DNA of 64,000 nucleotides. It comes from Halobacterium sp. DL1. GTDB taxonomy: Archaea > Halobacteriota > Halobacteria > Halobacteriales > Halobacteriaceae. This document shows, piece after piece, positions 39,984 to 40,220 of the stretch. Below the pieces are notes generated by a model. That model saw only the letters and a program-made list of their open reading frames with translations, was not told where the DNA came from and ran no database searches. The stretch is from positions 2,610,216 through 2,674,215 of the forward strand of contig CP007060.1 of NCBI GenBank assembly GCA_000230955.3. The letters run 5' to 3'. The position numbers were made by a program, and so were the translations under genes. The stretch's first letter is position 1. Each line of letters opens with the position of its first letter.

Positions 39984-40057
39984 GTCCGGGTTGGGGTAGT
40001 GGCCTATCCTTCAGCCTTGTGGAGGCTGAGACGCGGGTTCAATTCTCGCACCTGGAC
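39984..40057 (+). tRNA. tRNA-His (anticodon GTG)
   Basis: The cloverleaf folds fully. The acceptor stem is TCCGGGT (39985-39991) with ACCTGGA (40050-40056). An extra 5' G at 39984 pairs with C73 at 40057, the G-1:C73 identity element unique to tRNA-His. The D arm is GGGTAGTGG...ATCC. The anticodon arm is CAGCC-TTGTGGA-GGCTG with anticodon GTG, and the T arm is GCGGG-TTCAATT-CTCGC. No intron and no encoded CCA are present. Its 3' end is repeated at 40197-40220. Confidence 0.96.
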
Positions 40058-40059
40058 CT
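40036..40059 (+). repeat. Attachment-site-like repeat, copy 1 (3' end of tRNA-His)
   Basis: The 24 bases from the T arm through the 3' end of tRNA-His and two bases beyond are identical to 40197-40220. Duplicated tRNA 3' ends are the usual footprint of tyrosine-recombinase integration at a tRNA gene, in which the element restores the tRNA end. Confidence 0.7.
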
Positions 40060-40078
40060 CGTTCTTCGAACGGTCAAC

Positions 40079-40103
40079 CGACGAGCACCTCGTGTGCTCG
40101 TCG
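40079..40103. repeat. Perfect 10-bp hairpin inside the duplicated interval
   Basis: CGACGAGCAC (40079-40088) and GTGCTCGTCG (40094-40103) are exact reverse complements with a five-base loop, 21 bases after the tRNA-His 3' end. No T-run follows. It may end the tRNA transcript or be a recombination-linked structure. Confidence 0.5.
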
Positions 40104-40196
40104 TAACCGTGAGCTGTCGTGGATCCTGCGAGATTGAACCCTGTTAGCGGTAGCCCGCACAGCGACTGAAGGGAGCGAGCAGGACCCGCTGGCTCC

Positions 40197-40220
40197 GGTT
40201 CAATTCTCGCACCTGGACCT
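40197..40220 (+). repeat. Attachment-site-like repeat, copy 2
   Basis: An exact 24-base copy of the tRNA-His 3' end (from GGTTCAATTC to CTGGACCT) lies 161 bp downstream of the first copy. No matching 5' half of a tRNA precedes it, so it is not a second gene. The 137 bp between copies carry a hairpin and a degraded inverted copy of the T-arm sequence at about 40127-40142. Confidence 0.7.

Follow-up and report, generated by a model that had tools for sequence, protein, structure and literature searches.

In integrons, attC cassettes form an array behind a fixed anchor, and a folded, imperfect hairpin is found at the end of the cassette. The Escherichia coli tyrT locus (rtT RNA), a single bacterial locus, provides an example in which the tail of a tRNA is repeated in tandem behind that tRNA. 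In archaea, the 3' ends of tRNA genes are favoured by integrases (PMC8371274), and the casposase of A. boonei reads the sequence TCAAATC upstream of its tRNA target site (PMC6614799), in so far as the excerpts of these two publications on which we draw cover the matter. Both serve as precedents for enzymes that recognise such a region of tRNA genes, with no action on the DNA units considered here implied.

The DNA that we analysed (the window) is a stretch of 64,000 nucleotides from Halobacterium sp. DL1, and it contains a tRNA-His gene whose 3' tail is repeated a short distance downstream. On balance, we regard this feature as one unit of a family of gene-free DNA hairpin cassettes that are anchored to tRNA tails, occur throughout the Halobacteria, and are either mobile or recombining. 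No description of such units was found in the titles and abstracts of the literature that we searched, most subscription journals being outside its coverage.

The tRNA-His Locus

The tRNA-His(GTG) gene that hosts the unit occupies positions 39985 to 40058 on the forward strand (ARAGORN; Rfam RF00005, 46.2 bits), the orientation of all features of the unit, and tRNA is the sole Rfam 15 family matched in the 8 kb around it at E-values up to 1. The 3' tail of this tRNA, from about tRNA position 52 to position 73 plus two bases, constitutes the first direct repeat (T1; 40036 to 40059). The exact 24-mer GGTTCAATTCTCGCACCTGGACCT recurs, at an offset of 161 bp, as the second direct repeat (T2; 40197 to 40220). 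When a 23-mer of the tail was searched for with up to three mismatches, only these two places in the window were recovered, and none was expected from 100 dinucleotide shuffles. The spacer between the tail copies (40060 to 40196) comprises 137 bp, for which the six-frame list of open reading frames contains no convincing gene. An exact 24-bp duplication of the tRNA-His 3' end and a gene-free spacer of this size with a perfect 10-bp hairpin had already been pointed out in a first-pass annotation of this DNA, and our repeat searches, the shuffling and the ORF list bear out both observations.

The spacer consists of three parts. Its leader (L; 40060 to 40120) separates the tRNA from the inverted copy described below, and holds the perfect hairpin (40079 to 40103; arms 40079 to 40088 and 40094 to 40103, with a loop of 5 nt); comparable leaders are found at other tRNAs, where the match of the covariance model R1 to a first unit mostly begins about 44 or 72 nt past the tRNA. 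The leader is followed by T* (GGATCCTGCGAGATTGAACC; about 40121 to 40140), an imperfect inverted copy that spans most of the tRNA-His tail and whose alignment score of 29 is higher than those of all 300 shuffles. A degraded inverted copy of the T-arm had initially been assigned to positions 40127 to 40142 of the spacer, where TGCGAGATTGAACCCT is located; an inverted copy is indeed present, but it is longer than had been assumed. The core hairpin (C; 40141 to 40196) is a long variant of the family core and is closed below by the pairing of T* with T2. Model R1 matches this unit at G000:C1:2650346-2650421, which corresponds to positions 40131 to 40206 of the window, with 35.6 bits and an E-value of 5.8e-6.

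Architecture and Covariation of the Units

Across the family, the order of elements is T1 (the tRNA tail), L (the leader hairpin), T* (the inverted tail), C (the conserved hairpin) and T2 (the tail copy). Most units form one long hairpin in which T* pairs with T2 and C lies between them, while L separates T* from the tRNA; they are gene-free and measure roughly 90 to 180 bp. The inverted T-arm copy of the tRNA-His locus, taken at first for a degraded copy, is a regular part of the family unit. The core is built from two stems, one of 5 to 7 bp and one that is variable, an asymmetric internal loop that is conserved (GTCGCAGC / GACCGTC) and lies between them, and an apex of the form GA-NC-GNA-GN-GA.

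RNAalifold recovered only 7 pairs from the raw MAFFT alignment, and the structure used in the model was written by hand from the fold of one unit and then checked by pair counts. Model R1 is based on alignment A2, which contains 14 cores hand-picked from the 21 in alignment A1; strongly differing units (Lys, Gly-gcc, Arg-ccg, short forms, others, and the window's own unit) were left out. In the 14-core alignment, 86.8% of the cells are paired, compared with 74.3% after shuffling and at most 45.2% when the alignment is slid. Among 116 model matches (alignment A3), 94.0% of the cells are paired and there are 310 double changes, versus 97 in shuffles (0 of 500), pair counts biased toward the model, to which A3 had been fitted. 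In selecting the 92 loci behind these matches, units or tRNAs had been expected there.

Distribution

A search of the DL1 genome with the tRNA-His locus also matched a tRNA-Gly gene with an identical downstream layout. A census was then taken of tail copies, defined as at least 18 of 21 nt of a tRNA's own tail within 450 bp downstream or upstream. Such copies occur downstream of 17 of the 43 tRNA genes of the DL1 genome, of 10 of the 44 tRNAs of its congener G012, and of 13 of the 51 tRNAs of G141 (30 best tRNA loci); in none of these three genomes is there a copy upstream. In the halobacterial genome G024, which has no model matches and a GC content of 41% behind its tRNAs, and in G200, a genome from outside the class, 0 of 29 tRNAs each carry a tail copy. 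Genome G141 also contains two dense clusters of tRNA-like genes (G141:C1:6995-11080 and G141:C2:586079-588480), many members of which are low-scoring.

Model R1 gives 22 matches in the DL1 genome at E-values up to 1, 17 of them with an upstream tRNA detected by ARAGORN. In a sample of the class, matches are present in 191 of 194 Halobacteria genomes and in 63 of 65 genera. In a sample of the phylum, 78 of 392 genomes have matches, all of them members of the same order as DL1, of which three further genomes have none; outside this order there are 0 matching genomes among 311, the kinship of 294 of the genomes without matches being deduced from sort order. A pattern scan of genome contigs yielded at least 119 stretches, 80 of them listed; all 30 haloarchaeal loci among the matches listed are matched by R1, and 0 of the 10 bacterial loci tested from that list are.

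Viruses were covered by three pattern scans, the first two of which used loose patterns and returned mostly chance matches, while one scan gave at least 120 stretches, of which 80 were listed and tested; R1 had 0 matches among the 92 viral loci (12 and 80) taken from these scans. Two comparisons with phages revealed no units. Two comparisons with plasmids matched only two tRNA-His genes, again with no unit. The plasmids concerned, NZ_CP084474.1 and NZ_CP084882.1 from Natrinema, carry a stretch that is 83.5 and 89.3% identical to the tRNA-His of the window and for which no feature is annotated.

Fit of the Tail Copies to the Local tRNA

A tRNA gene on the same strand lies within 1200 bp upstream of 108 of the 116 matches, and 28 tRNA types are represented. 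In 75 of the 108 cases, all 21 nt of the tail copy are identical to the tail of its host; in 89, at least 19 nt are. R1 itself contains no information on the acceptor stem. Identity between T1 and T2 drops sharply before tRNA position 52 (with a limit at about 52/53) and after position 73.

The inverted copy is also adapted to its host, to a lesser degree. The acceptor part of T* matches the local tRNA at 4.89 of 7 positions and other tRNAs at 4.39 (p 3e-8), a modest difference. In 12 of 76 first units, the core is preceded by an exact complement of the final six nucleotides of the tail, against an expectation of 0.6. In a strict test of the whole inverted arm, the local tRNA ranks first in 18 of 108 cases, which is likewise a modest signal.

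At the tRNA-Asn and tRNA-His loci of congeneric species, the two tails change in concert. There are three T1 variants for Asn (6 species) and three for His (7 species), and at all 13 loci T2 is identical to the T1 beside it, with spacers that are 76 to 95% identical in gap-excluded alignments. Some process holds the second tail, which is non-functional, to the sequence of the first.

Turnover and Signs of Movement

In genome G009, the units behind tRNA-Gly-ccc and tRNA-Arg-ccg are 83% identical over 125 bp and have nearly identical cores, and T1, T2 and T* each match their own tRNA at both loci. Leader and core are further shared between the tRNAs Thr and Asp, and between Arg-cct and Arg-ccg. 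A comparison of the tRNA loci of the DL1 genome with those of G012 shows tail copies shared by the two at 6 loci, confined to DL1 at 11, and confined to G012 at 4; the flanks match a precise empty site at Asn, Ser-cga, Arg-gcg, Arg-tct and His, and several comparisons of this kind are ambiguous. Behind tRNA-Glu and tRNA-Gly-gcc, these two congeners bear different units, and the remains of an older leader or unit apparently lie behind the newer one. Perfect copies are found in 59 of 76 first units and in 16 of 32 distal units (p 0.006). Together, these comparisons suggest a gain of units at the tRNA-proximal end and decay at the distal end, though each single case may also be a loss. At Asn, the unit is old: orthologues are present in 6 of 13 genomes of the genus, and the empty site in G012 therefore probably represents a loss and not a gain.

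The most durable rival to our reading is that the arrays are old and non-mobile, being inherited vertically, losing units through recombination between tail copies, and keeping their tails alike through gene conversion and template switching in the hairpin, with no transposition at all. The orthologous Asn units agree with this proposal, as does the fact that T2 tracks T1 at all 13 loci, which is compatible with gene conversion without transposition; moreover, repeat-mediated deletion has been described for Haloquadratum in the portion of PMC3119063 used here. What this explanation handles poorly are the near-identical leaders and cores at different tRNAs of one genome, and the differing Glu and Gly-gcc units of two congeners with apparent older remains behind the newer ones. 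We give it a minor, if still appreciable, chance of being correct, and consider that the cassette family probably moves as mobile DNA.

A few loci deviate from the common layout. One match in the DL1 genome (L087, 1501 to 1565, minus strand; G000:C1:381555-381619) is a unit without an adjacent tRNA, the tail copies of which resemble the tail of tRNA-Phe; a tRNA-Phe gene is located on the same strand 77.5 kb upstream of it, an arrangement reminiscent of the insertion of a large element between tRNA and unit. A second orphan unit (L088, 1501 to 1560, plus strand; G000:C1:2075143-2075202) stands behind a tail copy of the Val type, with no complete tRNA. Behind the tRNA-Asn genes of G004, G005, G006 and G008 (L519 to L522, first 60 bases downstream), smaller hairpins have been inserted, several of them with C(GTA)G loops; they end with the final bases of the tail (GACGGCG), and in G005 the unit core itself is broken by another hairpin.

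DNA or RNA

The tandem G.A and the C(GNA)G apex of the core brought an H/ACA or K-turn guide RNA into consideration. A structured non-coding RNA or a processing signal co-transcribed with the tRNA would be in keeping with the strong covariation and with the position of 108 of the 116 matches downstream of a tRNA on the same strand. The types of mismatch that the helices tolerate tell otherwise. Counted over 109 tRNAs of the same genomes, the acceptor and T stems contain 55 G.U and 0 A.C pairs, while the core helices contain 14 G.U and 12 A.C pairs (Fisher 4e-7 versus the tRNA stems). Because A.C is nearly as frequent as G.U, unlike in the tRNA stems, we read the core as DNA and not RNA; judging from these sequences, it would be kept at the DNA level, either through selection on the folded strand or through copying across the hairpin. 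The arms, in which one strand is the tRNA tail, have 72 G.U and 28 A.C pairs, an excess of G.U that is less clear in its meaning, since it either points to RNA or results from one strand being fixed as the tail. Rfam 15 matches no family over the units at E-values up to 1 or 0.1 apart from tRNA, the sole extra being a sub-threshold match antisense to a tRNA, and many tRNAs of the same genome lack a unit. A structured RNA is thus disfavoured by the pair counts and the Rfam searches, and we regard it as quite improbable.

The Proposed Single Integration Scar

The first-pass annotation had interpreted the tRNA-His locus as an integration scar in which the element is nearly gone: a larger element would have been inserted once by an integrase and then mostly deleted. 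The direct repetition of the tRNA 3' end accords with such an event, and part of the interpretation stands: in G012, the tRNA-His gene abuts sequence resembling that beyond the second copy of the window (score 185 versus 94 for the alternative), an empty site by which the repeat behaves as the footprint of an insertion or recombination. The locus is not a solitary scar: 17 of the 43 tRNAs of the genome show this architecture, for which reason the account is rejected as a full explanation. Rather than being the residue of something larger, the 161 bp make up an intact unit of a family that occurs at many tRNAs and in almost every genus of the sample; the tail copies of the family are regularly spaced, and the inverted arm recurs. 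The tail is directly repeated, as in an integrase att scar; the gene-free 137 bp contain no integrase gene. Within the first 420 bp downstream of tRNA-His in 12 genomes of the genus, including that of DL1, there is no larger element bounded by the 24-mer repeat. We consider a single deleted element very unlikely. It had also been reasoned that a repeat and spacer unchanged across distant genera would imply an ancient structural role in place of integration; this holds by half, as the architecture and the core hairpin are kept, while the spacer sequence and the presence of a unit vary quickly. Chance repetition, with none expected in the window and recurrence across the family, has a negligible probability.

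A Possible Mechanism

In our reading of the tRNA-tail cassettes, the hairpin would act as DNA, either as a single strand or as a cruciform. Units would be gained at the tRNA-proximal end and lost through recombination between the direct copies. The local tRNA tail would be the template of these copies or the standard to which they are kept, either through insertion with target duplication or through an att-like exchange together with conversion, and the inverted arm may be re-tailored by copying across the hairpin.

A Y1/IS200 transposase (of the IS200/IS605 type or as in PATEs) does not fit as the needed host enzyme in its phyletic pattern: 62 of 194 genomes lack Y1_Tnp, two of which (G006 and G010) have 21 unit matches each, and it is present in G024, G030, G061 and G133, which have 0 or 1 unit match. 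By analogy with integron attC sites and with exchange at tRNA att sites, our favoured, though rather doubtful, candidate is a recombinase that would act in trans on the T-loop region of the folded DNA. It is conceivable, and we offer it tentatively, that the units represent a new class-wide system in which DNA hairpins would jump between tRNA genes, acquire their direct and inverted tails by copying the target, and build polar, gene-free arrays, possibly by means of a conserved host recombinase.

Tail copies behind tRNA genes are usually taken as traces of viruses or genomic islands; in haloarchaea, many of them would belong to the cassette family and would lead searches for integrated elements astray. 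Should the cassettes be mobile, they would be minimal elements with a built-in record in the order of their arrays and in their cognate arms, and target copying and hairpin recombination could be tested in an archaeon. They also raise the question of how a tail copy without function stays identical to the functional tRNA tail.

Comparison with Known Systems

Family 2 casposons share with the units a tRNA target, a target duplication and the sequence TCAAATC, read by the A. boonei casposase and equal to the common T-loop sequence; they encode Cas1, have terminal inverted repeats and duplicate 14 to 15 bp, whereas about 21 to 22 bp are duplicated in the units (PMC6614799). The tRNA-His unit, in which no cas1 gene lies within terminal inverted repeats and no gene is present, is not a casposon. 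The SMR elements and PATEs of Haloquadratum are, like the units, transposase-free, palindromic and haloarchaeal, with a size of about 110 bp for SMR; the passages available describe them as not tied to tRNAs and as lacking target duplications, while tail copies of about 21 nt flank the units (PMC3119063). An SMR, with its terminal inverted repeats and no target duplication, was rejected in view of these direct tail copies.

The att sites of archaeal tyrosine integrases resemble the units in the direct repeat of a tRNA 3' end, the intact tRNA and the precise empty sites. The units differ from them in having neither an integrase nor any other gene, in their recurring hairpin core and inverted tail, in their presence at many tRNAs per genome, and in their tandem arrangement. 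The tail repeats of E. coli tyrT are not known to have an inverted tail or a core shared across a whole class, both of which the units possess.

Integron attC cassettes have in common with the units an anchored array, a folded imperfect hairpin and apparent growth at the end next to the anchor. The units possess such a hairpin, together with its covariation; in contrast to integron cassettes, they are gene-free, are accompanied by no identified integron integrase, and carry a tail that differs with the tRNA behind which they lie.
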